Translations under genes and position numbers: made by a program
Part shown: piece after piece, positions 12,460 through 34,476 of the stretch
Position numbering within the stretch: position 1 is the stretch's first letter
Layout of the letters: the number at the start of each line of letters is the position of its first letter
Notes under the pieces: model-generated
The model's input: only the letters and a program-made list of their open reading frames with translations
Database searches by the model: none
Told to the model about the DNA's origin: nothing
Assembly (NCBI RefSeq): GCF_021538615.1
Contig: NZ_JAJHIZ010000002.1
Location: forward strand, 1,116,001-1,180,000
Direction of reading: 5' to 3'
DNA from: Niabella agricola
Lineage (GTDB): Bacteria > Bacteroidota > Bacteroidia > Chitinophagales > Chitinophagaceae
Length of the DNA: 64,000 bases

Positions 12460-12504
12460 CTAAGATACAGCAGGCCAATGCCAGCGCCATCCTGTGGTGT
12501 CCTG
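12460..12504 (-). promoter_or_regulatory. PUL 1 promoter A: heptamer repeat pair plus -7 box (for GH105)
   Basis: On the minus strand CAGGACA (12504-12498), three bases, CAGGATG (12494-12488), exactly 20 bases, then TATCTTAG (12467-12460). The same order and spacing occur at 14850-14894 and 34476-34432. The proximal heptamer sits where a -33 box would be, suggesting an activator that replaces or overlaps it. The start codon is 31 bases downstream. Confidence 0.65.
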
Positions 12505-12540
12505 AAACGCAAAGCAAACAAGCGATGCGGCTGCCTGCAG

Positions 12541-12584
12541 CAGGAAGGAGCAGGATTGTTGTTTTACCGGAATTGGTACATTTG
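12541..12584 (+). promoter_or_regulatory. PUL 1 promoter B: variant heptamer pair plus TACATTTG
   Basis: CAGGAAG (12541-12547), GAG, CAGGATT (12551-12557), then 19 bases and TACATTTG (12577-12584), a perfect Bacteroidota -7 consensus. ATTG at 12555-12558 could serve as the -33 box. It reads toward the six-hairpin gene at 12649. Spacing is one base shorter than at the other three sites. Confidence 0.55.
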
Positions 12585-12648
12585 CACTTGCTGAAACGTT
12601 TGATTTCTGTATCAGCTATTTTCAAAAGTCCCTACGATTCCCAAGCAT

Positions 12649-14796
12649 ATGAAAAGAGCGCTTCAATTCCTGTTCCTGCTATTCGCAATTCCGTTTTTAG
12701 CAAAGACCCAGCAACTACCCCGGGGCAGCATCAACAGGAAACAACTGGTCGAGCGGCATACGGTACGCGTTGAAACAGCAGATACGCTGTCTTCCCTTTC
12801 AGTAGGTAACGGTGCATTTGCTTTTACGACGGATATTACGGGTTTGCAAACATTTCCTGAAGTTTATTCCAGGGGCGTGCCACTTGGAACGCAAAGCGAA
12901 TGGGGCTGGCATAGTTTTCCCAATACGCAGCATTATGCCTTCCGGGACGCACTAAAGTCTTACCAGCTTAACGGAAGGGACGTATTATATGCAGTGCAGT
13001 GGAGCGGTGGTCCGCCGGCTCATCATCAGGCAGCCGACTACTTCCGGCAAAACCTGCACCGGCTGCAGCTGGGCAATATCGGGTTCGACATCCGGTTGCG
13101 GAACGGCGCACCTGCCCGAATCACCGATATCCGCAACATCACGCAAGAATTGAATATGTGGACCGGAGCCATCACGTCTTCTTTTATGGTAGAAGGTATC
13201 CCGGTAACAGTGTCCACCTTTTGTCATCAGCAACAGGACGCCATTGCCGTACAGGTTCGCTCCACCTTATTGACACAGGGCCGTCTCCGGATCCGCATCC
13301 GCCTGCCCTATCCTACCGGTACATGGGCCGATATGGGCACTCACTGGAACGAAGAACAAAAGCACCAGTCTGTATTGACCGGCCTTTCAAAGAACTGTTC
13401 AGTGATCCGGCATACATTGGATACCACAATCTATACGATTACCACTACATGGACCGGAGCCGCTACAATAGCTGCAAAAGCACCCCACGATTACCTGCTG
13501 ACACCGCAGCATCGCGATCATTTCGAATTTACCTGTGCATTCCGTTCCGGAAGCCAGGCAGCACCCACCCCTTCCTATTCAGAAACCGCGGCGAACAACC
13601 GGCAGCAATGGGCACAATTCTGGAAAAGCGGAGGAGCTGTTGATTTTTCGGGCAGCACCGATCCCAGGGCAGCGGAACTGGAACGCAGGATCATCCTGTC
13701 TCAGTATCTTACCAAAATTCAATGCGCGGGCAATAACCCTCCCCAGGAAACCGGCCTTACCTATAACAGCTGGTATGGCAAACCCCATATGGAAATGCAC
13801 TGGTGGCACGGCGTGCATTTTGCATTATGGGGACGTACGGCCTTACTCGAAAAAACGCTTGCGTGGTATGCGAAAGCCGCAGGCGGAGCCCGGCGGATTG
13901 CTGAAAGGCAGGGATACCGGGGACTGCGCTGGCAAAAGATGACCGACAATGAAGGCCGTGAAAGCCCTTCCTCTGTGGGCGCGTTCCTCGTATGGCAGCA
14001 GCCGCATTTTATTTATTTTTCGGAGCTTTGTTACCGGGCGTACCCGGATATTCAAACGCTGAACAAATACAAGGACCTTGTATTTGCCACAGCTGATTTT
14101 ATGGCCTCTTTTCCCTATTACGATACGCTGCAACAACGCTATATCCTGGGCAAGGGCATTATTGCAGCGCAGGAACGGTTTAAAGCGGAGGAAACCTTTA
14201 ATCCAACTTATGAACTGGCCTACTGGCGATGGGGCTTACAGGTGGCGCAGCGTTGGCGCGCGCGCCTGAAACTTCCCCGTGAAAAAAACTGGGACCGGGT
14301 GCTGCAGCAACTTTCAGCACTTCCCGTACAAGGTGATAAGTATCTTTTTACGGAAAGTGCTGCCGATTCTTATACCAACCCGGAATATAAAACGGACCAC
14401 CCGTCCGTTTTCGGAGCATTGGGCATGTTACCTGAAACCGCCGGTGTTAACAAAAAGATCATGCAGCATACCTTTGACTGGATCTGGAACAACTGGAGCT
14501 GGAAAGACACCTGGGGCTGGGATTTTCCCATGACCGCAATGACCGCTACCCGTCTTGGAATGCCGGAAAAAGCGATCGATGCCTTACTGATGCCCATACC
14601 TACCAATACCTATTTACCCAACGGACACAATTATCAGGATGAGCGTCTTACCTTATATCTTCCCGGCAATGGAGGTTTGCTTGCAGCTATTGCCATGATG
14701 TGCGCCGGGTATGATTACAATACCCGGGTCCTTCCGGGCATTCCACAAAACGGACAATGGATGGTGAAGTGGGAAGGGTTAAAAAAAATGCCCTGA
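12649..14796 (+). CDS. Predicted secreted six-hairpin glycoside hydrolase, family not assigned
   Basis: A 715-residue protein with a signal peptide (about 1-20), an N-terminal beta-sandwich-like half (about 40-310) and a C-terminal helical half (about 335-690). The order resembles GH65/GH95-type inverting enzymes with a beta supersandwich followed by an (alpha/alpha)6 barrel. Conserved-looking active-site features are GKPHMEMHWWHGVHFALWG near residue 380 and ESPSSVG near 440; WNNWSWKDTWGWDFPM and YQDERLTLYLPGNGGLL lie near the C-terminus. The acidic E in PHMEMHWW and D/E in YQDERLT are candidates for catalysis. It sits in PUL 1 divergent from GH105, so the substrate is probably a rhamnogalacturonan side chain or end unit. 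The exact family is uncertain. Confidence 0.7.
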   Translation: MKRALQFLFLLFAIPFLAKTQQLPRGSINRKQLVERHTVRVETADTLSSLSVGNGAFAFTTDITGLQTFPEVYSRGVPLGTQSEWGWHSFPNTQHYAFRDALKSYQLNGRDVLYAVQWSGGPPAHHQAADYFRQNLHRLQLGNIGFDIRLRNGAPARITDIRNITQELNMWTGAITSSFMVEGIPVTVSTFCHQQQDAIAVQVRSTLLTQGRLRIRIRLPYPTGTWADMGTHWNEEQKHQSVLTGLSKNCSVIRHTLDTTIYTITTTWTGAATIAAKAPHDYLLTPQHRDHFEFTCAFRSGSQAAPTPSYSETAANNRQQWAQFWKSGGAVDFSGSTDPRAAELERRIILSQYLTKIQCAGNNPPQETGLTYNSWYGKPHMEMHWWHGVHFALWGRTALLEKTLAWYAKAAGGARRIAERQGYRGLRWQKMTDNEGRESPSSVGAFLVWQQPHFIYFSELCYRAYPDIQTLNKYKDLVFATADFMASFPYYDTLQQRYILGKGIIAAQERFKAEETFNPTYELAYWRWGLQVAQRWRARLKLPREKNWDRVLQQLSALPVQGDKYLFTESAADSYTNPEYKTDHPSVFGALGMLPETAGVNKKIMQHTFDWIWNNWSWKDTWGWDFPMTAMTATRLGMPEKAIDALLMPIPTNTYLPNGHNYQDERLTLYLPGNGGLLAAIAMMCAGYDYNTRVLPGIPQNGQWMVKWEGLKKMP

Positions 14797-15146
14797 CCAT
14801 TAAAATAATTGTCTTTTTAACAAAAAATTTTGCTTCGCAATCGTTTGCGCAGGATGGAGCAGGATGATCACCGGTTTTAGTTGATTTATTTTAGTATGGT
14901 TCCATTAAAAACGAACCATATGACCCTAAACTCAATGATTGCGCGAAGCCTCGCATTGCCGATAGTATCCTTTGTGTTCACGAACCATACATTTACACAG
15001 ACATTCCCCATCACCGGAAAGATTGCCGTTCATAACGAATACGTTTACCCGTATACCAATACAGGTACACCCATCCGTTGCACCTTCCCATCCGCGTCCG
15101 ACGCATTTCCTAATTTAAAATATACCAAATGCAAACACAATATCTA
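14797..15146 (+). other. Leader and promoter region of the PL1 gene
   Basis: A 350-base stretch between two plus-strand genes. It holds promoter C and a 5-prime hairpin (described separately), followed by about 225 bases of apparent 5-prime leader. An open frame through it has no recognisable content and runs into the lyase gene in another frame, so I do not call it a gene. Confidence 0.5.
14850..14920 (+). promoter_or_regulatory. PUL 1 promoter C with 5-prime stem-loop (for PL1)
   Basis: CAGGATG (14850-14856), GAG, CAGGATG (14860-14866), 20 bases, TATTTTAG (14887-14894). Overlapping the expected transcription start, TATGGTTC (14895-14902) pairs perfectly with GAACCATA (14913-14920) around a 10-base loop, giving a hairpin at the extreme 5-prime end of the mRNA. 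Such structures can protect transcripts; that role is inference. Confidence 0.65.
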
Positions 15147-16592
15147 ATGAAACACAGGCTTTCTAAAAATGCAGGTCTGGCCATCCTGGCATTTCTGATC
15201 TGCTCCTGTCAGAAATCAGTTGTCAATAACCCCGTTCCGCTGCCTAACGGAAGCAGCAAACAGGTCCTTAGTCCTGCAGCGTTGGCCAATGAACGAACTC
15301 CGGCATTCCCCGGGGCAGAAGGCTTTGGCCGGTTTGCCACAGGCGCCCGGGGAGCAACCGACCCCGCTGTTTATACCGTTACCAACCTGGAAGACAGCGG
15401 CCCCGGTTCATTCAGGGACGCCGTGAGCCAGCCCGGACGATTCGTGGTCTTTGCCGTTACCGGTATCATCCGGTTAAAATCGACAGTGGCCGTAGCCCCC
15501 AATACAACGATTGCCGGGCAAACCGCTCCCGGCAAAGGCGTGGTCATTTATGGAAGGAAGGTTTCCTTTACCGGCGCCAGCAATACCATCGCGCGCAACC
15601 TGCGCATCCGCCTGGGCTCCAATGCCGGCTCCTCCCGCAGCGATGACGCTTCGGGAATCGCCAATGGAAAGCATATGATCTTTGATCATGTTTCCTTTAC
15701 CTGGGGCCAGGATGAAGTTTTTTCCATCAACTGGGATAATAAGCATATCGAGCCCGACAGCATTACACTGCAGCACTGCATCGTTGCCCAGGGGCTTAAC
15801 AAAGTAAATCACTCTGCCGGCGGACTGATCCAGACACATGGGAGGATCAGCATTCTCAAATGCCTTTATGCCAGCAATAAGACCCGGAATCCAAAAGTAA
15901 AAGGCATTAATGAGTTCGTAAACAATATCGTTTACAACTGGGGCAACCTGGGCAATCCCAAGGGCCACACCGTTTCCGGGGAAGCCTATATTATGGGTGG
16001 ATCGGAAGGTGTATCCAATGTCAATATCATAAACAATTATTTTATACAGGGGCCGCTTACTCCCGACGAACCCACGCCGTTTTCAAGGGGAACCGGCACC
16101 TTTTACCTTTACACAGCCGGCAACTATTTCGACCGGAACAAGAACGGCCTGTTGGATGGCACAGAAGTGTCCCCGGATTCAACCGGTTATCCGGGTCTGG
16201 AGCCCGGCAATTTTATGCCGGTGCCCTACGCTTATCCCTACAGCACCCCTGTATTGTCTGCAACCGATGCATTTAAATATGTAGCAAAAAACGCCGGGGC
16301 CCTGTATCCACACCGGGATGATGTAGACAAATTACTGATTGCGGAATTGCAGTCCCTGGGCACAGCAGGCCTGTATGTGTATACAGAATCCGACCTGCCC
16401 CTAGTCAATGGCGGCCTGGGCGATTTCCCCTATGCCAGTCCGCACAAAGACAGTGATGGAGATGGCATCCCGGATAGCTGGGAAAAGAAACTGGGGCTGA
16501 ATGCCGCCGTCCGCGACGCATTGCAGCCAAACAGCGCAGATCCGCGTTACCTGAATATCGAAGTGTACATCAATGCGCTCGTGCGTAAATGA
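15147..16592 (+). CDS. PL1-type pectate lyase lipoprotein
   Basis: I start at ATG 15147 rather than 15129, because this gives a 20-residue lipoprotein signal ending at the lipobox LICSC (C21). The 481-residue product carries AFPGAEGFGRFATGARG and VTNLEDSGPGSFRDAV, the opening of Bacteroidota PL1 parallel beta-helix lyases. FDHVSFTWGQDE lies in the calcium/active-site region. DSDGDGIPDSWE near the C-terminus is a calcium-loop motif often appended to these lyases. PL1 enzymes cleave homogalacturonan by beta-elimination, which creates the unsaturated ends that the GH105 enzymes remove. It sits in PUL 1 under promoter C; the GH43-like gene follows after 125 bases. Confidence 0.88.
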   Translation: MKHRLSKNAGLAILAFLICSCQKSVVNNPVPLPNGSSKQVLSPAALANERTPAFPGAEGFGRFATGARGATDPAVYTVTNLEDSGPGSFRDAVSQPGRFVVFAVTGIIRLKSTVAVAPNTTIAGQTAPGKGVVIYGRKVSFTGASNTIARNLRIRLGSNAGSSRSDDASGIANGKHMIFDHVSFTWGQDEVFSINWDNKHIEPDSITLQHCIVAQGLNKVNHSAGGLIQTHGRISILKCLYASNKTRNPKVKGINEFVNNIVYNWGNLGNPKGHTVSGEAYIMGGSEGVSNVNIINNYFIQGPLTPDEPTPFSRGTGTFYLYTAGNYFDRNKNGLLDGTEVSPDSTGYPGLEPGNFMPVPYAYPYSTPVLSATDAFKYVAKNAGALYPHRDDVDKLLIAELQSLGTAGLYVYTESDLPLVNGGLGDFPYASPHKDSDGDGIPDSWEKKLGLNAAVRDALQPNSADPRYLNIEVYINALVRK

Positions 16593-16717
16593 CCGCGATC
16601 AAATCTTCTTAATTTTGGCCCTGACAACCTGCAGGCAGTTGTTCGCTAAAACTGCCGGGCGTGATTCAAGCAGCCCGGGAAACAGCTTGTTAGGGCCTTT
16701 CAAAAAACAGTGTTACA

Positions 16718-17776
16718 TTGAACCGCAAAACATTCGTACAACAACTTTCGGTTTTAAGTGCCGGTGTGTGTATTCATACCGGAGGCCTGATGCCTTCCGG
16801 TCCTGCGCCTTCAGCATTCAGTAAACACCTCAAACCCCTGGGGCGGGCACTGGAGCTGGAAGGTTTTTATGTCTGGTGTAACAGTCCCATTACGGGCCCC
16901 GACGGCAAAACGCATGTATTCTTTTCGAGATGGAATGCAGCCAAAAAGATGAGTGGCTGGATTAACGGATCGGAGATCGTGCATGCCGTTGCAGATAAGC
17001 CGGAAGGTCCATATGAGGTGCGGGGTACCGTACTGCAACCCCGCCCGGGTTACTGGGACGCAACCACCTGCCACAATCCCTTTATTACTACCTTCAACAA
17101 TAAGTACTACCTGTATTATATGGGCAATGCCAACGGAAAAACCAATACCAAACGGATCGGTTTGGCCGTGGCGGATACGTTGGATGGGCCCTGGGAACGC
17201 ATGGACCACCCCCTGCTGGAGCCCGGGCGGAAAGGCAGCTGGGATGACCATTGTACCACCAACCCTTCCGTAATCCAGCACCCGGATGGCCGGTACTGGC
17301 TTTATTACAAATCCTGGAATACCCGGGAATACGAAACACAAACCGGCGCCGTACGAGGGAACCGGAAATACGGCCTGGCATTCAGCGACCAGCCCGAAGG
17401 CCCGTTCAAAAAATATGAAGGCAATCCCATTGTTGATTTTTCAAAAAGAGGGAACAACGCACAACTGGAGGATGCTTTTATATGGCAACAGGGCAATACA
17501 TTTTATATGATTGCAAGGGATATGGGGTATTACAATCATGAATGCGGCATCATCCTTACTTCCCGGAACGGTATGGTATGGGGCAAGCCTAAAATTGCAT
17601 TTTACGGGGCAGAGCGATATCTGCAACAACCACCGGCCCCACCCCACCTTAAGCGCTATGGCCGTTTTGAACGGCCACAACTGTTACTGCAAAAGGGGAA
17701 ACCCACACACCTGTTCACTACCAGCCAGGGAGGAAAATACCATACCGCCTCTTCGTTTATTTTTAAAATCACCTGA
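16718..17776 (+). CDS. GH43-like glycoside hydrolase, TTG start
   Basis: A 352-residue five-bladed beta-propeller-type enzyme. The only start that keeps the N-terminal signal-like stretch (NRKTFVQQLSVLSAG) is TTG at 16718; no ATG is available nearby in frame. Recognisable family segments are WDATTCHNPFI, KYYLYYMGNA, GSWDDHCTTNPSV, DGRYWLYYKSWN and QLEDAFIW; acidic residues in these loops would be the catalytic set. Clan GH-F/GH43-type enzymes mostly act as arabinanases, arabinofuranosidases or galactosidases; the exact activity is open. It is probably cotranscribed with the PL1 lyase. The next gene is convergent. Confidence 0.75.
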   Translation: MNRKTFVQQLSVLSAGVCIHTGGLMPSGPAPSAFSKHLKPLGRALELEGFYVWCNSPITGPDGKTHVFFSRWNAAKKMSGWINGSEIVHAVADKPEGPYEVRGTVLQPRPGYWDATTCHNPFITTFNNKYYLYYMGNANGKTNTKRIGLAVADTLDGPWERMDHPLLEPGRKGSWDDHCTTNPSVIQHPDGRYWLYYKSWNTREYETQTGAVRGNRKYGLAFSDQPEGPFKKYEGNPIVDFSKRGNNAQLEDAFIWQQGNTFYMIARDMGYYNHECGIILTSRNGMVWGKPKIAFYGAERYLQQPPAPPHLKRYGRFERPQLLLQKGKPTHLFTTSQGGKYHTASSFIFKIT

Positions 17777-17978
17777 TATAAAAATGCCCCTGGCTTTGAG
17801 ACCGATCGTCTTTTTCCAAGCGTCCCTGCAGTTGTTTGCGCAAACAGCCGGGCGGGTCAAAGACCGGCATTTACAGTCTGATCGGCGCTGCCATCCCAGC
17901 GGTGAAGGCAAGCACAGCACCCCGGTAATGGATGGGCCTGATCACATTTATTATTTACATCTCAATACCTGTTCCGAT

Positions 17979-20666
17979 TTATTCTGATGTATGGGCCGGG
18001 ATCCAGATTTTGCTCAGGGGTTCCCGCGCGGCATCTTCTGCCGGCAGGGGTGTTGCCGCCACCCGGTTCATCCGGCTATAATTGGGGATCGCCAGTAACG
18101 GCGATCCATCTGTCCAGCTCCCCTTAATCACCATAACGCCGCGTAGCAGATCGGGTCTCCATTGCAAACTCAACGGCCCGTTACTGATCGTTTTTTTGAT
18201 ATCCTGGTCGGCGGCTTCCACATTATAAACAAGCGGGCCATAACGAAGCGCCACCTTCCCTTTATCGGCGGCGATGCGCGCATCAGCGGTTACGCGTTGT
18301 ATTTCCATTGGCAATTCCAGGTCGATCTGATCTCCTTTTTCCCATACTCTGGTAACCGCCACGTAACCCTGATGCACTGTTGAAGCAATCATCCTGCCGT
18401 TTACAGACATGAATTTCAGCCCCTGCACCAAGGGCACGGCCCTGTACAGTTTGCTGGTGCTGCGATTGGGCACACGGATATAAATCGTAAATGCTTTTTT
18501 TTGATCCGGATTTACCGTAATACGAACCTTTCCGCTCCAGGGGTAATCTGTTTTTTGTATCATCTCTACGTCTGTGCCCGCAACCTGATCCACTTTGATG
18601 GTACTTCCTACAAAAAGGTTTACATAAAGTCCCTGTTCGCCCCTGACATAGGTCCAGGTGGGCAACATCAGCAGCGTGCGGGGAATATTGCCTACACAGC
18701 AGGGACACACATGCCAGGCGTATCTTGGCTGACTGGTAGACAGCGCATTCGTATACGTAAAGTATTTGCCATCGAGCGATAAGGACCCCAGCAAGGCATT
18801 GTACATCGTTTCTTCATAAAGGTCTGCATATTTGGCATCATGGTAGGCCAGGTTCATCTTATACTGAAAAAATATGAGCCCGCAGCTGGAGCAGGACTCG
18901 CAGTAAGCATCATTGCCTAATGAAAAATCAGGACCGAAACCTTCGGAGGTTTCACCACTTCCGATTCCGCCGGTGATATAATATTTCCGGTTCACCATAT
19001 TGTCCCAAAGCGACATTACCGCACTTTGATAATCCACATCACCGGTTTCTGCGGCCACATCTGCCATGCCTGAATAATTATAGGTGGCGCGCACCGCATG
19101 TCCTACAGCTTCATACTGTTGCTGCACCGGTACATGGCTCTGATCATAAGAACTTCCGCCATTGCGGTTATCCAGCAGGAACCGGGCCAGCTTAATATAG
19201 CTGTCTCCATGGCTTTGATGTCCCTCCATATCATTCACAAACCGGCCAAACCGCACCAGGGCCTGCTCCATTTCCTGGTGTCCGTCGTACCAGGCATTTT
19301 TGCCCGGACCAATGTAGGCGACCCAGCAATCCGCCAGTTTTTTGGCCGCATTGTACAGGCGCTTGTCCTTACCCTCTGTAAGCGTGTAGTGATTGATCGC
19401 CGATTCAATAAAGTACCCCGCCACATATCCTTCATGGTTCCCCCGCCCCTCCGGAGACCAGCGGTTATGCCACCTGTTGGTATCGCGCAATGTAAAGGCC
19501 GTTTGCAGATAGCCATCGGATTCCTGCGCCGCCAGGATGATGGGGATCCACCGGTTCAGGGTTTTCTGCATTTTCTGCTGGGCTGCAATCATCTCCTGGT
19601 CACCCTGCGGATCCACCATAAGGGCTTCGCACATCGCCTCCACCGTCTGGTGCACCCAGGCATTTGAGAATACGTAGCCCTTATGCGGTCCGTGCGGCGC
19701 TCCACGCAGCGCTTTTGCGGCCTCAATAAAATTATCAATACCTCCGTTTCCAACGGACAGATCGGTGCGTTCGCATTGATCGATACAAAAGGGAATCCAG
19801 CTAACGATCAGTGCTTTGACCCGGTCGCTCCATAACTGATGATCTACCCTATAACGGCGTGTATACACCACATCCAGGCGCCGGGCCGGTGGCGGTGAGA
19901 CCACTTTTACTTTTATGGAAGATCTGGCCTGCAGCTTGCCGGAAGCGGCCTCAAGAGAAAGCACATAATCGCCGGTGGCGGAGAAAACGGCCGTACCTGT
20001 TTTATCCTGCGCATTGCTGAAAGTAACCGTTCCCGGGCCTGATAACTTTTTCCATACAATCTTTTGAACCGGTGTTGATGACCGTACGCTACCCGAAAGA
20101 TATGTTTTCCCATTTAACATTACATTCCGGTCGATGCCCGCATCCACAAGCGGCGGATAGGCGGCACCTTCGACCTGGTAAACCACCCATTCCTGCAACG
20201 ACGGCACCTGCCGGTAAGCGGCATCTATCTCCAGCCGCAGGCGGGTGGTTTTTATTTCATCAAAACGGCTATGATTGAACACGTCGTTCTTTAGTCCCAG
20301 TCCCGTAACATTCTTCACCGGCACAAAACCCTTACCATTCCAGTATTGAATGCGGTACGCTGCGGGTATGGGTTCACGGCCGTTAAAATTGTGCCAGTAC
20401 AAGGCGATCTCTTCTATCGCCACCGGCTGTTTCCACTCGTATTGCACCCATTGCACCTCCGGACGGGATGATCCGCCATGCCCGGCCGGAGCGAGGTCGC
20501 CCTTATTTACGGGCATCACACCATCATACAAATGCGAAAAATCGTCCCCCGACCCGGAGGGCATTGCTATCATCGCCAGGTTATGCCGTTCCGGCCCCTT
20601 CTGCTGCGCAAGGCAAACGGGTATCCAAACAAGCATCAGCCAACATACACAGATACTTTTTTTCAT
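17979..20666 (-). CDS. GH127 beta-L-arabinofuranosidase with accessory domains
   Basis: I use ATG 20666, which places a signal peptide (about 1-20) first; an upstream in-frame start adds eight unlikely residues. Of 895 residues, about 25-170 look like a carbohydrate-binding F5/8-type sandwich, about 173-257 a PKD-like Ig domain, and 265 onward GH127 (DUF1680). The zinc/thiolate site is visible: E590 and C592 in CESC, and C654, C656 and C657 in HVCPCCVGN, with C656 the likely nucleophile by analogy to the HypBA1 enzyme. GH127 releases terminal beta-L-arabinofuranose, present in pectin RG-II and in hydroxyproline-linked arabino-oligosaccharides. It is the last gene of the PUL 1 minus-strand operon. 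Confidence 0.9.
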   Translation of the reverse strand: MKKSICVCWLMLVWIPVCLAQQKGPERHNLAMIAMPSGSGDDFSHLYDGVMPVNKGDLAPAGHGGSSRPEVQWVQYEWKQPVAIEEIALYWHNFNGREPIPAAYRIQYWNGKGFVPVKNVTGLGLKNDVFNHSRFDEIKTTRLRLEIDAAYRQVPSLQEWVVYQVEGAAYPPLVDAGIDRNVMLNGKTYLSGSVRSSTPVQKIVWKKLSGPGTVTFSNAQDKTGTAVFSATGDYVLSLEAASGKLQARSSIKVKVVSPPPARRLDVVYTRRYRVDHQLWSDRVKALIVSWIPFCIDQCERTDLSVGNGGIDNFIEAAKALRGAPHGPHKGYVFSNAWVHQTVEAMCEALMVDPQGDQEMIAAQQKMQKTLNRWIPIILAAQESDGYLQTAFTLRDTNRWHNRWSPEGRGNHEGYVAGYFIESAINHYTLTEGKDKRLYNAAKKLADCWVAYIGPGKNAWYDGHQEMEQALVRFGRFVNDMEGHQSHGDSYIKLARFLLDNRNGGSSYDQSHVPVQQQYEAVGHAVRATYNYSGMADVAAETGDVDYQSAVMSLWDNMVNRKYYITGGIGSGETSEGFGPDFSLGNDAYCESCSSCGLIFFQYKMNLAYHDAKYADLYEETMYNALLGSLSLDGKYFTYTNALSTSQPRYAWHVCPCCVGNIPRTLLMLPTWTYVRGEQGLYVNLFVGSTIKVDQVAGTDVEMIQKTDYPWSGKVRITVNPDQKKAFTIYIRVPNRSTSKLYRAVPLVQGLKFMSVNGRMIASTVHQGYVAVTRVWEKGDQIDLELPMEIQRVTADARIAADKGKVALRYGPLVYNVEAADQDIKKTISNGPLSLQWRPDLLRGVMVIKGSWTDGSPLLAIPNYSRMNRVAATPLPAEDAAREPLSKIWIPAHTSE

Positions 20667-20725
20667 ATACTGACCGTTCATATAAAACATAAATACATCT
20701 TTTTAAAAATTATTTTACCCAATCC

Positions 20726-22060: not shown

Positions 22061-22066
22061 GTTTGA

Positions 22067-22858: not shown

Positions 22859-22870
22859 GTTTATTTGATT

Positions 22871-22919
22871 GAGAAGTCAGATTTGAGATTCGAGATTCGA
22901 GATTTGAGACCAGAGATTT
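22871..22919. repeat. Degenerate heptanucleotide tandem repeat (7 x 7 nt)
   Basis: Seven 7-base units run without interruption: GAGAAGT, CAGATTT, GAGATTC, GAGATTC, GAGATTT, GAGACCA, GAGATTT. They lie between the start of CE12 and the end of the GH43-like gene, inside the PUL 1 operon. Unit number could vary by slippage and alter spacing or mRNA structure; the effect is unknown. Confidence 0.8.
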
Positions 22920-24275: not shown

Positions 24276-24279
24276 ACTA

Positions 24280-26265: not shown

Positions 26266-26295
26266 ATCAGGCTTTTTAATTAGTATATATTTAAA

Positions 26296-29200
26296 TTACA
26301 GATCAACCCTCACACCAAGTACAAAACTCCGGTAGCTGTAAGAGTTGGGGCCCACCTGCCCGGTGTTTGAAACATCCACAAATTCCTTGTAAGGCACCGT
26401 TTCGGGATCATAGTTCTTATCGGCATTGTGGATGAGCACGGGGTTCATGGCTGTTACATATACGGCCATATTGCTCATATGGGCCCTCTCGGTGAAATGC
26501 CTGGGCAGGCGGTACGTAAGCGTAATATTTTTTACCCTGATGAAAGTCGCTTTGCGGTAAGTAAGCGCTTCCCAGTACAAGGGAATGTCGCTTGTTTGAG
26601 TGGGTTGCTGGTAATCATTGCTGGGATTCGAAGGCGTCCAGTAATCGACCTTACTGGATTGATAACGTCCTACCAGTCCCGGACGGGGCACACGGTACAG
26701 GCCTCCCACCCGGAAATAAGTGAGAAAATTCAGCTCAAAATTTTTATAGGTAAATGTATTATTAACGCTGGCAATAAAATCGGGATTGTGTGAGCCCAAT
26801 ACCACTTTATCGATGGGGCTAAACGCCGAATCTCCGTTGGCATCAAAAATTTTAATCTTGCCCGGCTGATAAGCGCTGTTGGTGCGCCCGTTCTTGGGCC
26901 AGAAAATGGCAGACAGGATCCCGTTTGCGGCCGTGTCTGCGTACTGGAAGATTCCCTCTTTCTTATAGCTCCAGTACACCTGCAGGGGTTGGCCCAGGAT
27001 CCACAGGTTTGCATAATTGCTGTTACCGGAGCCATCGATATCCACAATCCGCTCCTTATTTTTGGTAAACATAAAGTCCGTAGTCCAGCTAAATTCCGGC
27101 CGGGCAATGTTCCGGGTCGTCAATGCGATTTCGATGCCCCGGTTATTTACCTTGCCAAGATTAAAATACATCCAGGTAACACCGTTTGCGGCTGGTATGG
27201 TACGTTTTTGTAACAGATCCGTGGTATTGGAATTGTACAGATCCACCGTACCGGTGATCCGGTTGTTTAGCAATCCAAATTCCAGTCCCAGGTTGGTGGT
27301 AGTCGTCTTTTCCCAGCCCAGACCCGGCGTAGGAAAGGTAGAAGGCGCTGTACCGATGGCAGCCGTGCCATTTCCCCAGTTATAATTGGTAAACGCAAGA
27401 GGACCACCGGTCTGATAAGGGTCGATAGAAGCATTTCCAACACGACCGATCCCTGCGCGGATCTTTGCACTATTGAAAAAGCCCTGGTTGCTAAAAAACG
27501 ATTCGCGATCCAGCTGCCAGGCAATGGATCCGGATGGGAACCAGGCGCCTTTATTGTCCTCCGACAACACGGATGAATTGTCGTAGCGGTTGCTGAGGGT
27601 CAGCAGGTATTTGCTCCTGAACCCATACTCCACTCTTGCCATATAAGACAGGTATTGCGAAGCCGAAAAATCGCCACTACCGGTTACCGTTGCGTCGGTG
27701 TTCCGTTGCAGCGAATACCATTTCTGCGATTCGAAGATGAGGTTGTTCGCGCTCATGGTCAGCGAAGAGGAACGGTTCAGGCTTTGCATCTCGTGCAGGA
27801 GGGTTACGTTCAGGGAATGGTCATTCTTAATACTCGTGTTATATGTTACAATATTGTCAAATACCCATGAGGAAGCCCTGTTATCTGTTTGACTGGCACT
27901 TGCCAGACCACCCAGCCGCACTGAAGATTCGGCGCCGTTAAACTGGCCGCGTACGGAACTGCGGATGTCGGCGCCGAACATTGTACGGTATTTCAACCCT
28001 TTCAAAAGCGTTACCTCGGCATATACATTTCCAAAAATGCGGTTGGCCTTGGTTTCATCAAAAACGGTATTGCGGTCATTAATGGCGCTGCGGATCTGCT
28101 GGTCGCCATTCGGATAAAGCACCCATTTGCCGGCCGAGTCATAAGGCGTCACCAGCGGGATCATGCCGGAAGCATTGCCAAAGGAACTGGTGCTTGAATT
28201 GGTAATGCTGTGGGAAAAGTTGATACTGGTACCGAAATTCAAAAATCTGGCAGGTTTGAAATCAACCGTATTGCCGATGGAATAGCGCGTATAATCCTGC
28301 GCCCATTCAATGCCTTTCTGTTTAAAATAACCGGCACTGAGGGATGCTTTTATTTTTTCGCTCCCCCCGGATACCGAGATGCTATGATTATCGGTCGACC
28401 CGTTCCTCAGGCCTACTTCATTTTGCCAGTCGTAGCCTTTTACTTTTGAGGGATCATACAGGTCCACACTGTCCAGCTGGGTAGTGATGCCCAGCCCCTG
28501 CATCAGGGCTCTTTCTTCAGCGGTGGTAGCCCTTTTCCGGGCCCTGAAGATATTGTTCACCGGATCATATACATCCCAGGTATAGGCGTCTTTGACTGCA
28601 TTCCACTGCGCCTCGCTGCCAAAGCGCTTCCAGAACAGCGCAATATCATTCACAGCCGTGGGATAATAATACAAGGGATTGCTAGCTGAAGCGGTACCCC
28701 TTGTTGCCGTATACTGGCGGTCTGCAAAAAAAGCCTGCCTCCAGGCATCGGCAATCTCGGCGCCGTTAAAAACGGGCAGCGGGCGGGTAACCTTCTCGAT
28801 CGATTTACTGCCCATGTAGGTAACACTTACCTTTCCGGCCCTCCCCTTCCTGGTAGTAATCTGTACCACTCCATTGGCACCTCGTACACCATAAATGGCC
28901 GTTGCGGACGCGTCTTTTAATATATCCACGCTTTCGATATCGGCTGGGTTCAGGTCATCGATGGTATAACTCACCGGGAACCCATCCACTACATATAAAG
29001 GTTCGTTACTGGCATTGAGGGAACGGTTTCCGCGAATGCGGATGGTGGCGCCGGCACCAGGTTTAAAACTGCTTGGGGTGGCCACCACACCCGTGATCCT
29101 TCCCTGGAGGGCCTGTGTAAGGTTGGAAGCAGGTACAGTTCTGAGCTTATCACCGCTGATGGAAGCCGTAGCCCCAGTTACATCCGACTTCTTCCGCGAT

Positions 29201-29553
29201 CCATAACCAATGACCACCACTTCATCCATTGAACTGGTTTTTTGTTTCAGTACTACGTTTATCGCCGGCCCGGAAACGGTTAGCTCCTGTGTTTCATATC
29301 CCACGCTGGAGATCCCGACCACAGCGTCCTTCGGGGCCGTAATGGTAAACCGGCCGGCATCGTCGGTGCGTGTAGCGGCGGTGGTTCCTTTTACTTCAAC
29401 AGAAGCTCCCGAAACCGGTTTACCGGCTTCATCCGAAACGACCCCTTTCACTGAAATAGTTCCCGGAACCTGCGCCCAAAGCCCTCCCGATACGGTTGCC
29501 GCCAGCAGGATCAGCATATACAGCAATTTTCTAAAGATTAAGTTTTTTTGCAT
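26296..29553 (-). CDS. SusC/RagA family TonB-linked outer-membrane transporter
   Basis: A 1085-residue transporter. A signal peptide (about 1-27) is followed by a carboxypeptidase-like regulatory domain (about 33-107) and the SusC-specific DEVVVIGYGS motif (about 109-118). The plug contains ADIESVDILKDASATAIYGVRGANGVVQITT, and a large beta-barrel ends in an aromatic/hydrophobic tail (FVLGVRVDL). There is no N-terminal STN domain, so it is not expected to signal to an anti-sigma factor. It imports oligosaccharides using TonB energy. It lies inside the PUL 1 operon, 128 bases after GH105, with an inverted repeat upstream. Confidence 0.95.
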   Translation of the reverse strand: MQKNLIFRKLLYMLILLAATVSGGLWAQVPGTISVKGVVSDEAGKPVSGASVEVKGTTAATRTDDAGRFTITAPKDAVVGISSVGYETQELTVSGPAINVVLKQKTSSMDEVVVIGYGSRKKSDVTGATASISGDKLRTVPASNLTQALQGRITGVVATPSSFKPGAGATIRIRGNRSLNASNEPLYVVDGFPVSYTIDDLNPADIESVDILKDASATAIYGVRGANGVVQITTRKGRAGKVSVTYMGSKSIEKVTRPLPVFNGAEIADAWRQAFFADRQYTATRGTASASNPLYYYPTAVNDIALFWKRFGSEAQWNAVKDAYTWDVYDPVNNIFRARKRATTAEERALMQGLGITTQLDSVDLYDPSKVKGYDWQNEVGLRNGSTDNHSISVSGGSEKIKASLSAGYFKQKGIEWAQDYTRYSIGNTVDFKPARFLNFGTSINFSHSITNSSTSSFGNASGMIPLVTPYDSAGKWVLYPNGDQQIRSAINDRNTVFDETKANRIFGNVYAEVTLLKGLKYRTMFGADIRSSVRGQFNGAESSVRLGGLASASQTDNRASSWVFDNIVTYNTSIKNDHSLNVTLLHEMQSLNRSSSLTMSANNLIFESQKWYSLQRNTDATVTGSGDFSASQYLSYMARVEYGFRSKYLLTLSNRYDNSSVLSEDNKGAWFPSGSIAWQLDRESFFSNQGFFNSAKIRAGIGRVGNASIDPYQTGGPLAFTNYNWGNGTAAIGTAPSTFPTPGLGWEKTTTTNLGLEFGLLNNRITGTVDLYNSNTTDLLQKRTIPAANGVTWMYFNLGKVNNRGIEIALTTRNIARPEFSWTTDFMFTKNKERIVDIDGSGNSNYANLWILGQPLQVYWSYKKEGIFQYADTAANGILSAIFWPKNGRTNSAYQPGKIKIFDANGDSAFSPIDKVVLGSHNPDFIASVNNTFTYKNFELNFLTYFRVGGLYRVPRPGLVGRYQSSKVDYWTPSNPSNDYQQPTQTSDIPLYWEALTYRKATFIRVKNITLTYRLPRHFTERAHMSNMAVYVTAMNPVLIHNADKNYDPETVPYKEFVDVSNTGQVGPNSYSYRSFVLGVRVDL

Positions 29554-29586
29554 CGTTTTATATTGGTTTAGTTAACATATGTATTA

Positions 29587-29625
29587 AATAATTGTAATTA
29601 TCACAATTATTACTATTGACAATAG
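29587..29625 (-). promoter_or_regulatory. Two inverted repeats upstream of SusC
   Basis: AATAATTGT (29587-29595) and ACAATTATT (29603-29611) are perfect 9-bp arms 7 bases apart, 34 bases before the SusC start. CTATTG-A-CAATAG (613-625 of the 29 kb block, that is 29613-29625) is a second, 6-bp palindrome beside it. Both sit in the 128-base gap between GH105 and SusC and could be an internal operator or a processing hairpin. The region is AT-rich, so chance is possible. Confidence 0.4.
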
Positions 29626-29681
29626 CATGATGCAGATGCCGGAAACAGCTGAACCATCAGCCGGCAACCCGGTATCCACTG

Positions 29682-31055
29682 CTATTTCATCTGCACCGCA
29701 CTGTCATTGATCTCAAATGGATGCTGTTGCAGCATCCGGAAGATTTCGGCACCAGCCAGTAAAACAGGACCATAACCATGTGCCGCAAAATTGTTCACCG
29801 GCCGGTAATAATAAAATGCCGGGTCAAAGCCCATCCCGGTGCCCACACAAACGCCGGCGATCTGTCCCCCGGAAGTCACTTTAGTACTTACTGCATTCCA
29901 GGCCAGTAACGCTGCAGGTCCGTAAGCCCTTGCATCCAGCCAGCCCTTATTGATTCCCCGGGCGATGCAGTAGGTATAAATGGCCGTAGCCGAGGTTTCG
30001 AGATAGGAATCATTGCGGTCCAGCAACTGGTGCCAGAAGCCGGTCTTATCCTGGAGCGCCGCGAGCCCGGCCACATGTTTCTGAAACATGCTTAGTATTT
30101 CCTTTCTTCCCGGGTGGGTAGCCGGCAGGGCATCGAGCAGCTCTGTTTTTGTAAGCAGCGCCCACCCGTTTGCACGCCCCCAATGGAACTGCGGGTGCGG
30201 TTCCATCCCCTGTACCCAGCCGTGCATATAGACCCCTTTTGTTTCATTAAACATGCGTGCCGCAAACTGCCGGTATTGTTTTACAGCCTCATCAAAATAG
30301 CTGGTTTGCCCGGAGAGCAGGCCCATCTGTGCCAGCGCCGGTAAACTCATGTATAAATCATCAAGCCACAGCGTATTAGGCAAAGGTCGGTTCCTGGCAA
30401 AAGTTCCATCCGGAAGACGGAATTCCTTATGCAGTATATAGTCTATAAAATGATCGATCATCGGACGCGTCACCTTTTCATCAGCGCCTGCCCGCAGGGC
30501 CTTGATCATCGCCGCGGCCATGGAGCCAGCATCGTCCAGCGCATGGGGACGGATGACGGATGTTACCGGAACCGTTCCGTTTTCATGCTGTTTCAGCAAT
30601 GCCTTATAATGCTGTACTACCTTCCCGATAAAATTGATCCGGTCAACAGCGTATCGGGCATACCGTTTATCACCGGTGGCAGCAGCCGCTTCCAGCATAC
30701 CGGTATATGTAACGCCCCATTCATAACTGATGAGCCGGAAATCACCCGGCTTCAATATGCTGTTAAAATCAGCATCATCTAGGCGGCCAACTATGGCTCC
30801 ATCCGGTTTATTGATCAGTTGCATGGGCGTTACAGCTTCGAGATACTGATATATTTTATCCAGCACTTCTTTTACACGCTGCGGCGTGGTTTCGCCATAA
30901 GGCGTACTGTAATCCGGTTTTAGCAGATGCAGCGGCGTTGTTGCATCATTCCCCTTCGCCGGCACGTATTGCGCGCTGACAGTGCCGGCAGCTGCTGCAA
31001 TAAACAGCCCGGCATACAAAAGGCGTGGTCTTAAACACTTTATACAAGCGATCAT
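29682..31055 (-). CDS. GH105 unsaturated rhamnogalacturonyl hydrolase (second copy)
   Basis: A 457-residue GH88/GH105-type enzyme with a signal peptide (about 1-29). The catalytic segment reads LWLDDLYMSLPAL (D232/D233), with the second acidic motif RLISYEWGVTYTGM; FHWGRANGWALLTK and DRNDSYLETSATAIYTY complete the active-site landmarks. It is clearly diverged from the copy at 11298-12428, suggesting a different chain length or linkage preference. It removes unsaturated uronic acid from lyase products. It is third in the PUL 1 operon, between GH106 and SusC. Confidence 0.9.
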   Translation of the reverse strand: MIACIKCLRPRLLYAGLFIAAAAGTVSAQYVPAKGNDATTPLHLLKPDYSTPYGETTPQRVKEVLDKIYQYLEAVTPMQLINKPDGAIVGRLDDADFNSILKPGDFRLISYEWGVTYTGMLEAAAATGDKRYARYAVDRINFIGKVVQHYKALLKQHENGTVPVTSVIRPHALDDAGSMAAAMIKALRAGADEKVTRPMIDHFIDYILHKEFRLPDGTFARNRPLPNTLWLDDLYMSLPALAQMGLLSGQTSYFDEAVKQYRQFAARMFNETKGVYMHGWVQGMEPHPQFHWGRANGWALLTKTELLDALPATHPGRKEILSMFQKHVAGLAALQDKTGFWHQLLDRNDSYLETSATAIYTYCIARGINKGWLDARAYGPAALLAWNAVSTKVTSGGQIAGVCVGTGMGFDPAFYYYRPVNNFAAHGYGPVLLAGAEIFRMLQQHPFEINDSAVQMK

Positions 31056-31096
31056 ATTTTTGGTTTATTTTTGAAACACTGCACCCTGCAGTGCCG

Positions 31097-33919
31097 TTAT
31101 TGTAAGGGCGTAAGCGTAACAGGGCCCAGAAGGCCGGAGGGCAAGGGCTTCCAATGCGCTGCATTAAACAAGCCATTCTTTCCATTTTCCTTTAGCCGGG
31201 CTGGCATATTGACGTTGTAAAATATTTTCCAGGGTAATTGCTCCCGGTCCATATAAGCGATGCGGTTGGCCATCCGGTTGGCTACCACAATTTCCAGCCG
31301 GTTTGTTTTCTGCAACGCCGATGCCGGGATCACTGCTGTAAATGAAGGTCCGATCAATGTAGCCAGGCTCTTGCCATTCAGGATCACTTCGGCCGTTTCA
31401 TGCACCGTGCCCAGGTTCAGCAGGTATTGCTCCGCATTGCCGGGCCTGTCAAAAGCAATCGTATATTTTGCCGTACCGGAGAAGTTCTTTACGGCATCGC
31501 CCGGTGCATCCGTCCAGGAGCCCAGGGTGCTGATGACCTGGCTTGCGGGCAGTACGGGACCACCTTCCAGGAAACTGAGGTTCCAGTTTCCCTTAACGGG
31601 GATGGCAGCTCCCGCACTGTTTTTATAAGGAAACGGATCCCCGTCCCGTTTGGTATCAAAGGTCTGAACCAGCATGGATGCATGAGGCTGCAACTGCACC
31701 CGTACCTCAATGCCGTTTTCTTTTTTACGCCAGTTGGCCAGCCCTTTCTCACCGCTCATCGCGTCAAATAAAGCCACCGATGCGGCATCAGCCGTCAGCG
31801 GCAGCCACTCTTCTGCAACCCGTTCCGTGCGATTGTTAATAAAATAAATACGGCCATCCATATTTTTTTGCCGAAGGATGTAGATCTCCTTATCTGCCGG
31901 CTTTTCTTTTCGTATGGCCCCGGCCTGCATCAGGGTTTCCAGGTCTTCACCTACCCAAACGGAGCCCTTACCGATGACAGCCTTCTGTGCATTCCCCTGT
32001 TGGGTGAACCGGAGCTGGCGGATCAGGCCGGAAAGCTTGCTCCGCCGGGCGTCCAACTGATACAGCCCCGGCACATCCGAGGGAAGCTTCTTATATACCA
32101 ATACCGTTGCACCGGCCCGTGCCAGCGCCAGTATTTTGCCAAAGCTTTCATCCGTAATAAAATGATTAGCCGGCAGCATGATCGCTGTATATTGATTGCC
32201 TCCGGTGACGATATGCCCCGATGCAACCCGGAATTGCTGCAATTGCCGGTCTGAAAAAAAGTCAAACCCATATCCTTTTTCAACCATGGCGTTCGACACC
32301 TGTTCAAAACCGGTATGCTCAAAATTTTTCTCCATGCCGTCAAAATGTTGTAACAATGCGTTTCCCGGCGCTGAGTAGCGATCGATGATCGGATAATAAA
32401 GCAGGAGATCATTATCCGGTTTCCCCATCTGTAAAAAACTTTGAATACGTGCGATATAAGTGTTCAGTGCATGGAAGTCTTTCCATTGCGGGTTAACCGG
32501 CTGAAAATGCACCGCTGCATAAAACAACCAGCCCGGCCAGGGAGCCTCCCTCGGTGAGTAGGCGGTGCCATGATAAAAAACATGATTGATGCCGCCCAGA
32601 AAATACAGATCGATCGCTTTCTTTACATCACCCCAGGATGAAAGAAAATGTTCGTTGAGCCAGGTGGCTGATTCTGAGGAAACCAGTTGCTTACCGGTAA
32701 CATGGGCCGCTGAACTTGCAAATTTAAAGCGCAGGATATCGTTTCCCTCCGTTTCCGGTATATCCACCACGCCATACAGATCCAGCGTATTTGCCGGTGA
32801 GCCATGGCTTTGATTGCGCAGCATCTTTCCTTTTCCATCGCTCCATTTTTTCCACTCCATTGTAAAATGCTCCAGCAACAGTTCGTCGATCACGGAACGG
32901 TAGTCATAGCGTACACGGCTGTTTTTATCTGCTTCATCTTCCCCAAAGAGCGCCGGCAGCTCATTACGGAGGTCGTAGCCTTTCCGTTTTTTAAACTCAG
33001 CAAAAAACTCCGGTGTCCAGTTGGCTTGTCCGCGTGCATCATCTACCTCATACGAGTCGTTAAAGAAGGAACGCAGGTAACTGATGTCGGATGCTTTAAA
33101 CGCCTGATCAAACCGCTTAAAATAATTTGCTGCAGCCTGCTTTGAAAAGTGGTCAATAGCATATCCTTCACCACCCGGTGCGGCCCGCTCTACCATTTTG
33201 CCATGCAACCCCTCAAACAATGCATAAAGGGTCCAGTTTTTTGCGCCCGGAGGGGCCGTCCAGTTGAGCTTACCGGATGCTTCCACTTTTGCGGTAAGGT
33301 CTACCGGAGCGCCCTTGTCCGGGTAGGCCATCAGTGTTTTTAATGGCAGCCGTCCCGGAAACTGTACCTGATCCAGCGCCAGTGCCTGCAGGTTTTTATT
33401 ATCCGGAAGCGGGTTCTTAATCGCTGCCACTATTGCCGGTTTGTTATTGGCGGTACGCACAAAGCCCTCTTGCATATATAGCACCGGTTCTTTTAACTGT
33501 TGATTCCCATTTAAGGCATAGGTTTTATAATAGATAGATTTACTGGCATCGGCATCTTTCACCCAGGGGCCGCCAAAAGGCCATCCGGTGCCGTTGGCCA
33601 GGTCCACCCCCAGGCCCAGGCGTTTGCTTTCTTTAAGCGTGAATGAAAACAACTCCATCCAGCGTGGCGACAGAAAGTCAACAAATTTTTGTTCCTGGCC
33701 ATGAATACCGTAGATGGGCGTGATCTCCGTACCTCCGATGCCAGCCTGCTTGTATTGCTCCAGGTTCCAGGTCAGTTCTTCCTCGTTTACCGCACTTCCC
33801 TCCCACCACCAACGGGTCCAGGGTTTACTGGTTGCTGTAATTTGCGGCCAGCTAACCTGTGCCTGCATTATAACAGCAACTGCACAGGCAATCAGTAAGC
33901 ATATTATGTTTCTTATCAT
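31097..33919 (-). CDS. GH106 alpha-L-rhamnosidase
   Basis: I start at ATG 33919, where a signal peptide begins (MIRNIICLLIACAVAV); an upstream in-frame start adds 13 residues without signal character. The 940-residue product opens with SKPWTRWWWEGSAVNEEEL and GIGGTEITPIYG, the diagnostic opening of GH106. It has a long barrel region with GLGVDLANGTGWPFGGPW, and ends in jelly-roll domains (NLGTVHETAEVILNGK). GH106 enzymes release L-rhamnose by inversion from rhamnogalacturonans. The rhamnose mutarotase gene lies just upstream, supporting rhamnose as the product. Confidence 0.92.
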   Translation of the reverse strand: MIRNIICLLIACAVAVIMQAQVSWPQITATSKPWTRWWWEGSAVNEEELTWNLEQYKQAGIGGTEITPIYGIHGQEQKFVDFLSPRWMELFSFTLKESKRLGLGVDLANGTGWPFGGPWVKDADASKSIYYKTYALNGNQQLKEPVLYMQEGFVRTANNKPAIVAAIKNPLPDNKNLQALALDQVQFPGRLPLKTLMAYPDKGAPVDLTAKVEASGKLNWTAPPGAKNWTLYALFEGLHGKMVERAAPGGEGYAIDHFSKQAAANYFKRFDQAFKASDISYLRSFFNDSYEVDDARGQANWTPEFFAEFKKRKGYDLRNELPALFGEDEADKNSRVRYDYRSVIDELLLEHFTMEWKKWSDGKGKMLRNQSHGSPANTLDLYGVVDIPETEGNDILRFKFASSAAHVTGKQLVSSESATWLNEHFLSSWGDVKKAIDLYFLGGINHVFYHGTAYSPREAPWPGWLFYAAVHFQPVNPQWKDFHALNTYIARIQSFLQMGKPDNDLLLYYPIIDRYSAPGNALLQHFDGMEKNFEHTGFEQVSNAMVEKGYGFDFFSDRQLQQFRVASGHIVTGGNQYTAIMLPANHFITDESFGKILALARAGATVLVYKKLPSDVPGLYQLDARRSKLSGLIRQLRFTQQGNAQKAVIGKGSVWVGEDLETLMQAGAIRKEKPADKEIYILRQKNMDGRIYFINNRTERVAEEWLPLTADAASVALFDAMSGEKGLANWRKKENGIEVRVQLQPHASMLVQTFDTKRDGDPFPYKNSAGAAIPVKGNWNLSFLEGGPVLPASQVISTLGSWTDAPGDAVKNFSGTAKYTIAFDRPGNAEQYLLNLGTVHETAEVILNGKSLATLIGPSFTAVIPASALQKTNRLEIVVANRMANRIAYMDREQLPWKIFYNVNMPARLKENGKNGLFNAAHWKPLPSGLLGPVTLTPLQ

Positions 33920-34059
33920 TTTGTCCAAATGGCTTATGCAATTTTTTAATGTGGGCACATTACCGGCAGCTGGTCTGCGGGATTCTGGTTCGCTGTTTTC
34001 TGCGCCCCCGTAATGACCCTGCCGGCTAACGGCAGCTTCAGGTTTTATATCGCATCCCG

Positions 34060-34374
34060 TTATTCAAGATAGAATACTTCCTGAAGCGGAACGGATACCG
34101 GCGACTGGTCGGTATTCGTTTCCATGATATCGCACATATAGGCCCACCACTTCTGCATTACCGGGTGCGCGGGCAGATCTTCCATGGTGCGCCCCTGTTC
34201 AATCTTTAATATACCAAACAAATCGCAGGTCCCCTCGTCTAGAAAAATGCTGTAATCGCTGATACCTGTTTGTTTTAGCAGCTGCTGCAATTCGGGCCAC
34301 AGAGCGCCGTGTCTTTTTTTGTATTCAGCTTCATATCCTTTAAATAATTTCATTTTAAAAGCAATCCGTTGCAT
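34060..34374 (-). CDS. rhaM: L-rhamnose mutarotase
   Basis: From ATG 34374 the product is 104 residues, the usual length of RhaM; an in-frame start at 34398 adds eight residues outside the fold. MQRIAFKMKLFKGYEAEYKKRHGALWPEL matches the family opening, with H22 at the position of the catalytic histidine of the E. coli enzyme, and ISDYSIFLDEGTCDLFG continues the ferredoxin-like fold. It interconverts alpha- and beta-L-rhamnose in the cytoplasm. It is the first gene of the large PUL 1 minus-strand operon. Confidence 0.93.
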   Translation of the reverse strand: MQRIAFKMKLFKGYEAEYKKRHGALWPELQQLLKQTGISDYSIFLDEGTCDLFGILKIEQGRTMEDLPAHPVMQKWWAYMCDIMETNTDQSPVSVPLQEVFYLE

Positions 34375-34431
34375 ATTACCAGGCATTATTGTTCGCAATC
34401 CATAGGGCCATCAACCAGTGATTAAGAGGCA

Positions 34432-34476
34432 CTAAAATAAATCGTTTTTTGCTGTTACCCATCCTGCGCCATCCTG
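34432..34476 (-). promoter_or_regulatory. PUL 1 promoter D: heptamer repeat pair plus -7 box (main operon)
   Basis: On the minus strand CAGGATG (34476-34470), GCG, CAGGATG (34466-34460), 20 bases, TATTTTAG (34439-34432). It lies 58 bases upstream of rhaM, so it would drive the roughly 16-kb operon down to GH127. Spacing is identical to promoters A and C. Confidence 0.68.

Follow-up and report, generated by a model that had tools for sequence, protein, structure and literature searches.

A fixed-geometry promoter module and a candidate GntR-LacI rhamnose regulator in Niabella agricola and its relatives

We describe a promoter module found in a 64,000-nucleotide stretch of the Niabella agricola genome (positions 1,116,001 to 1,180,000 of contig NZ_JAJHIZ010000002.1; hereafter the window). 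The module lies before genes of a pectin polysaccharide utilization locus (PUL), PUL 1, and consists of two heptamers related to CAGGATG, 3 nucleotides apart, followed 19 or 20 nucleotides later by a -7 box. It precedes rhamnose and pectin genes elsewhere in the genome and in relatives; both the regulon and the geometry are well supported. The reading we favor, with a probability of about 0.65 judged from sequence comparison, is that a rhamnose regulator acting in trans, designated RhaR-G, would use the tandem as its operator and serve as a class II activator of rhamnose and pectin promoters.

Geometry of the module

The pattern CAGGAYRN3CAGGATGN20TATYTTAG matched the window without mismatches at three sites, exactly where an earlier sequence-only reading had placed them (Table 1), and the full module gave no further window match with up to 3 mismatches. 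None appeared at that tolerance in 100 dinucleotide-preserving shuffles of the window (mean, 0.00), in keeping with the earlier judgment that a chance origin is very unlikely. The fourth site, CAGGAAG-GAG-CAGGATT-N19-TACATTTG, departs from the N19 form at 2 positions. These results support the promoter architecture proposed as common to the PUL 1 sites. The tandem searched without its -7 box is not rare: with ≤3 mismatches it gave 12 window matches, compared with a shuffle mean of 5.2 and a largest value of 13, and with ≤2 mismatches it gave 81 matches in the host genome, compared with 7 for the reversed pattern; several of those inspected fall within open reading frames (ORFs). The significance therefore comes from tandem, fixed spacing, and -7 box combined; the module owes its rarity to the constant distance between tandem and box.

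That distance was measured in a wider set of 394 genomes. The exact tandem, with no -7 box required, occurred 118 times in 78 genomes (reversed pattern, 3), and 104 of these tandems, all distinct, entered the spacing counts. TANNTT followed at 20 nt in 34 and at 19 nt in 15, the minority class to which the fourth window site, genuinely a 19-base variant as first read, belongs. No tandem had TANNTT at 18 or 21 nt, and any other distance from 0 to 79 nt accounted for at most 4. With ORFs of at least 100 aa taken from a crude caller script, 48 of the 77 tandems outside ORFs had the box at 19 or 20 nt, compared with 1 of the 27 inside. Chance or base composition as the origin of the module was rejected on the shuffles, the reversed patterns, these spacing counts, and the resampled null given below.

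The -33 consensus is TTTG; the heptamer places GATG or GACG where that element would fall, which suggests a weak promoter when nothing is bound. According to the available part of PMC9723704, the -7 box occupies -12 to -5, which puts the tandem at -49 to -33 and its center at -41 (N20) or -40 (N19). By position the module would fit a class II (-41) activator promoter, overlapping the -35/-33 region at a fixed distance. The fixed 19/20-nt spacing and the center near -41 thus lend support to the earlier proposal of an activator that replaces the -33 contact.

Across 36 aligned sites the heptamer unit is CAGGATGG, with little information beyond the two units and the -7 box; 35 of these sites were found by pattern, which enriches the fixed letters by selection, and the remaining one is rhaT. 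At four loci (L233, L236, L239, and L245) three or four CAKGAYR heptamers follow one another in exact 10-bp steps, and in all four TANNTT lies exactly 20 nt past the last heptamer; the reversed control gave none in the same loci. The first three loci come from one genus, so these are at least two independent cases. With arrays that extend in 10-bp steps and the box 20 nt after the last heptamer, the unit behaves as a genuine direct repeat that grows on its upstream side while the downstream end stays anchored. CAGGAY and CATGAY heptamers are mixed within single sites, at rhaT of G083 and at a GH78 gene of G013, which suggests that a single protein binds both forms.

Genes behind the module

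The host genome (6.26 Mb, 3 contigs) was scanned with CAGGATGN3CAGGATGN20TANNTTNG at ≤3 mismatches, which gave 8 sites, compared with 0 for the reversed pattern. Placement was not random: 7 of the 8 precede carbohydrate genes or clusters, three of them being the perfect sites of the window. The eighth, at window positions 4101 to 4145 (minus strand), is within ORF 3812-4738 and is probably a chance match; the earlier statement that the window holds no other tandem copies stands for promoters. The idea of a code private to PUL 1 does not survive, as the same module precedes unlinked rhamnose and rhamnosidase genes (Table 1). At one of these loci a single tandem might serve two divergent promoters, those of a GH127-like and a GH78 gene. 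A search with the N19 form returned the fourth window site, two register-shifted N20 copies, and two weak, unassigned matches.

On contig C1, the rhamnose catabolic operon (rhaT, RhaEW, isomerase, and kinase) is preceded by CATGACA-N3-CATGACG-N20-TATTTTTG. Searching with CATGAC heptamers gave 3 sites, including one before a GH106 gene at C3:305074, together with 2 reversed-control matches, because of which this search carries less weight. Altogether, counting the four in the window, the host genome has ten promoter sites upstream of carbohydrate genes, mostly rhamnose or pectin genes. This distribution supports, at the level of sequence, one regulator acting in trans on the module promoters. 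RhaEW (TIGR02632) was used as the rhamnose pathway marker; a RhaA-type isomerase was rejected for that purpose, as the genome scan gave no PF06134 match at 0.001 and the isomerase of the operon matches that family only weakly (23.6 bits; cut-off, 22). Contig ends were checked for a regulator beside rhaT and gave nothing useful, C1 stopping 345 bp upstream of rhaT.

In the family set, a sample of 147 genomes, the full module with ≤1 mismatch was found at 30 sites in 18 genomes (reversed pattern, 0). The first gene downstream of the 28 sites outside the host is of SusC type in 10, encodes a carbohydrate-active enzyme or esterase in 12 (GH78 twice, GH106, GH88/105 three times, GH2 three times, GH29, PL11, and GDSL), encodes a fasciclin in 3, and is something else in 3. 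Among named genomes the strict module was present in 61 stretches, a few from the same assembly: 3 are strays and 58 have Bacteroidota titles, divided among Chitinophagaceae or its genera (16), Sphingobacteriaceae (20), Chryseobacterium (15), and others (7). Inspection by eye found pectate-lyase-like, GH28-like, and PL11-like genes downstream; several stretches showed no gene of these three kinds. In the Chryseobacterium stretches (within L287-L340), large pectate-lyase-like genes follow the module directly in several cases.

The genes behind the four window sites are listed in Table 1. No HTCS (hybrid two-component system) gene was present among the PUL 1 proteins scanned. Farther along, at 40275-46009, the window holds a hydroxyproline catabolism cluster with genes for a 4-hydroxyproline epimerase, a D-amino-acid dehydrogenase-like protein, a dihydrodipicolinate synthase-family protein, and an aldehyde dehydrogenase; an AraC-family gene (45098-46009) belongs to the same region.

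Table 1. Module sites, the genes behind them, and RhaR-G copies (window positions unless a host-genome contig, C3, is given)
Feature	Position	Strand	Description
Promoter of GH88/105 gene (ATG at 12428)	12460..12504	-	tandem heptamers (12504-12488), N20, TATCTTAG (12467-12460)
Promoter of 715-aa gene	12541..12584	+	variant tandem CAGGAAG-N3-CAGGATT, N19, TACATTTG
Promoter of pectate-lyase gene	14850..14894	+	perfect tandem, N20, TATTTTAG
Promoter of rhaM-to-GH127 gene run	34432..34476	-	perfect tandem, N20, TATTTTAG
Module site	C3:1243996		151 nt upstream of GH78 gene
Module site	C3:2062798-2062842		short intergenic region between GH127-like gene and divergent GH78 gene (L034, L052)
Module site	C3:2714098		immediately before another GH78
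Module site	C3:2418745		before ECF (extracytoplasmic function) sigma/SusC/SusD/GH106 cluster
GH88/105-family hydrolase	11298..12428	-	PF07470, E 7.5e-83
715-aa protein	12649..14796	+	sole match, below threshold, to GH65-N (PF14498, 0.0013); PDB sequences gave none at 0.001
Pectate lyase	15129..16592	+	matches pectate lyase 9buj_A in the PDB (E 5.6e-24); Pfam gave none at 0.001
GH43-like protein, downstream of pectate lyase	16718..17776	+	PF04616
GH127 beta-L-arabinofuranosidase family	17979..20690	-	PF07944
GH28 polygalacturonase family	20726..22060	-	PF00295
GDSL esterase	22067..22858	-	PF13472
BT_3657-like arabinosidase	22940..23863	-	PF22847
SusD-like lipoprotein	24280..26265	-	PF07980/PF14322
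SusC-like TonB-dependent receptor	26296..29553	-	PF07715/PF13715
GH88/105-family hydrolase	29682..31055	-	PF07470
GH106 alpha-L-rhamnosidase	31097..33958	-	PF17132
rhaM, L-rhamnose mutarotase, first gene of run	34060..34374	-	PF05336, E 5.4e-30
RhaR-G copy closest to relatives' protein	C3:1054900-1055916	-	host genome (G000), outside window; 66% identical
RhaR-G paralogue	C3:598797-599825	+	58% identical

The candidate regulator RhaR-G and its rivals

A gntR gene is divergent from rhaT in the 15 relatives that were read, with a rhaM-like gene between the two in one of them (G027). RhaR-G is our name for its product, a rhaT-linked GntR-LacI chimera of ∼343 aa. We collected 49 rhaT loci, picking motif-positive genomes first and not at random; 43 were usable, the other six lacking rhaT or its upstream region. 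Upstream of rhaT, CAKGAYRN3CAKGAYR with TANNTT at spacings of 19 to 21 was perfect in 28 of 43 (24 N20 and 4 N19) and present with ≤2 mismatches in 36; a null made by first-order resampling, which is not an exact shuffle, gave 0 perfect sites and 6 at ≤2 mismatches among 8600. Inspected by eye, the rhaT-gntR intergenic regions have the tandem as their only common element besides two -7 boxes. In the 14 divergons with a tandem at ≤2 mismatches (13 with rhaT and one with GH78-rhaT), the gap between the tandem and exact TANNTTTG candidates for the gntR promoter runs from 10 to 83 nt, or from 7 to 176 nt if one mismatch is allowed; the gap being variable, the site has no set position relative to the gntR promoter. 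In two Sphingobacterium loci a CAGGATG tandem lies shortly past the end of the RhaR-G gene.

RhaR-G is predicted to be an AraR-type protein by architecture, a GntR N-terminal domain joined to a LacI-type C-terminal domain; we class it as a variant on that basis and not as AraR itself. PF00392, the GntR winged helix, scored over cut-off in all 4 proteins scanned, and the N-terminal sequence resembles AraR/GntR, with a match to the AraR DNA-binding domain in the PDB (4egy). PF13377 was over cut-off in the host copy L151 (29.3; cut-off, 26.5) and below it in the other three. An AlphaFold model of L151 has a pLDDT (predicted local distance difference test) score of 90, and its C-terminal fold matches LacI-family and AraR effector folds. 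The host genome encodes, besides the two copies in Table 1, which lie on a different contig from the window, a third homologue with 33% identity. The C3:598797 paralogue is divergent from an operon of class II aldolase, xylose-isomerase-like, and kinase-like genes, and the promoter of that operon shares the module layout, with CGGGTCA as its left heptamer; the site, CGGGTCAnnnCAGGATA-N20-TAAGTTTG (L152:9639, minus strand; L154:10726, plus strand), is conserved in two species, the host and a genome of the same genus, and a GH78 gene lies nearby in L152. Another GntR-LacI-like regulator, at window positions 55242 to 56252, sits near alpha-galactosidase-like and other carbohydrate genes; it was rejected as the regulator, being only 27% identical to RhaR-G and a paralogue.

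Close RhaR-G homologues (E <1e-100, a cut-off chosen after the list had been seen; 72 at 1e-50) occur in 60 of the 147 family genomes and in 18 of the 18 that are motif positive (Fisher, 1.7e-8). A rhaT site with ≤2 mismatches is present in 34 of 37 loci with a close RhaR-G, compared with 2 of 6 where the homologue is absent or 45 to 46% identical (p 0.004). The other four of these six genomes, G006, G124, G053, and G108, have no matching rhaT tandem, which agrees with the model.

We propose the following mechanism. Identical RhaR-G subunits would bind head to tail on the 10-bp direct repeats, centered near -41, and the bound protein would occupy the place of the absent -33 element and assist sigma-A RNA polymerase in using a -7 box of the TAnnTTTG type 19 to 20 nt downstream, that is, class II activation. 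The inducer, judging from the target genes, may be rhamnose or a rhamnose metabolite, so that one monosaccharide signal would turn on the rhamnose uptake and catabolic operon, unlinked rhamnosidases, and pectin PULs together. That RhaR-G is the protein binding the tandem seems to us probable, and that the effect is activation and not repression is a little more probable still.

Several observations weigh against this assignment. RhaEW tracks the motif nearly as well (71 of 147 genomes and 18 of 18 motif positive; p 5.7e-7); co-occurrence by itself therefore does not tell the regulator from the pathway. RhaR-G was found neither in G016, whose rhaT site is perfect, nor in G142 (60% complete), whose rhaT site has 2 mismatches; conversely, RhaR-G is present in G025, G008, and G013 with no good rhaT site, the site lying in G013 at the GH78 gene that heads the rhaT run instead. 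In three genomes of the host genus, gntR lies apart from rhaT and lacks its own site. Only 2 of the 61 named motif stretches contain RhaR-G; those from Chryseobacterium, each ≤8 kb, have none, their genomes not having been searched for it. As a control the reversed pattern is lenient: in the host genome the loose tandem outnumbers it 81 to 7, and 27 of the 104 exact tandems lie inside ORFs. AraR, the nearest architecture, is a repressor. Our chief ground for caution is the last: GntR proteins mostly bind palindromes, in the portion of PMC4494728 available to us, which would make 10-bp direct repeats an unusual operator for a GntR-LacI protein.

The preference for palindromes, the orphan site of G016, and the Chryseobacterium stretches also favor a different binder, by which the tandem would be the class II site of an AraC-type, HTCS-type, or other one-component protein and RhaR-G, beside rhaT, would use another operator. 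We regard this as unlikely. The tandem is what the rhaT-gntR regions share; HTCS and Bacteroides RhaR motifs, as far as the sources available describe them, repeat at 21 bp, not 10; and among the genes listed beside the sites, looked over by eye and not systematically, AraC, LytTR, LacI-type, and HTCS regulators are scattered, with no family other than that of RhaR-G recurring.

Somewhat less likely again is that RhaR-G binds the tandem but represses, blocking -33 until released by rhamnose or a metabolite, as AraR does. Most GntR/LacI sugar regulators are repressors, and the tandem does overlap -33. A repressor has no need, however, of the fixed spacing seen in most tandems outside ORFs, and that spacing, together with the missing -33 element, argues against simple repression; the gap to the gntR promoter candidates varies in the divergons, and a promoter with GATG or GACG in place of TTTG looks weak before any repressor binds. 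A local regulator, either the AraC gene at 9615-10433 or the kinase at 7375-9288 that the sequence-only reading had named, is very improbable: proximity within the window is all that favors it, the module stands before unlinked loci, and neither protein had a tblastn match at 1e-15 in the loci examined, compared with 53 for the GntR-LacI protein.

Comparison with known systems

Regulation of PULs in Bacteroidota is usually described as local, with an HTCS, SusR, or an ECF pair inside the PUL. If RhaR-G acts as proposed, rhamnose catabolism and pectin PULs would be joined in one trans-acting monosaccharide regulon in Chitinophagaceae, which, judged by the motif, would extend to Sphingobacteriaceae and Chryseobacterium. 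The proposal points to one regulator gene and to the promoters it would target, and it supplies a defined promoter module, probably inducible by rhamnose. At roughly even odds, we would go further and see in RhaR-G a master regulator of rhamnose and pectin use, not previously described, in Chitinophagaceae and their relatives. It would be a class II activator of AraR type on extendable 10-bp repeats (2, 3, or 4 copies), anchored 19 to 20 nt from the -7 box, and would coordinate unlinked PULs with the catabolic operon while lying outside the PULs itself. In the literature searched, parts of which were available, no description was found of the module or of a GntR rhamnose regulator in Bacteroidota.

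The HTCS and SusR regulators of Bacteroides likewise use direct-repeat motifs before PUL operons, although the HTCS repeats are ∼21 bp and those of SusR 67/77 bp, and HTCS genes often lie inside the loci they control (PMC3878776 and PMC3870299, in the parts available). Here the repeat is 10 bp and the scanned PUL 1 proteins include no HTCS, unlike an HTCS-controlled PUL. In the same sources, RhaR of Bacteroides thetaiotaomicron (BT3768) also regulates a rhamnose catabolic operon, but is an AraC-family protein with a 21-bp repeat and a single target operon, whereas the proposed regulator is a GntR-LacI chimera with a 10-bp repeat and many PUL targets; the 10-bp repeat and the GntR neighbor at rhaT set our loci apart from an AraC-type RhaR regulon. 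A DeoR-family RhaR, by the partial account we have, controls a rhamnose regulon through imperfect 10- to 11-bp direct repeats, as here, and belongs to a different protein family.

GntR-family proteins on direct repeats are known as exceptions, namely the MocR/GabR subfamily, NanR, NagQ, and FarR (PMC4494728 and PMC5320631, again in part), and RhaR-G would join them. MocR genes are often divergent from the targets they activate, resembling gntR-rhaT; MocR proteins differ in their aminotransferase-like effector domain and in the long spacers of their direct repeats, and none of these exceptions, in the descriptions compared, combines a LacI domain with 10-bp steps. The closest parallel is AraR of Bacillus subtilis, like RhaR-G a GntR-LacI chimera. 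AraR is a repressor and its operators are palindromic, whereas next to gntR the conserved sequence is a direct repeat in a 10-bp step, at a fixed position that would suit an activator; if the proposed reading is right, an activating, direct-repeat mode would be added to the AraR-type GntR proteins.

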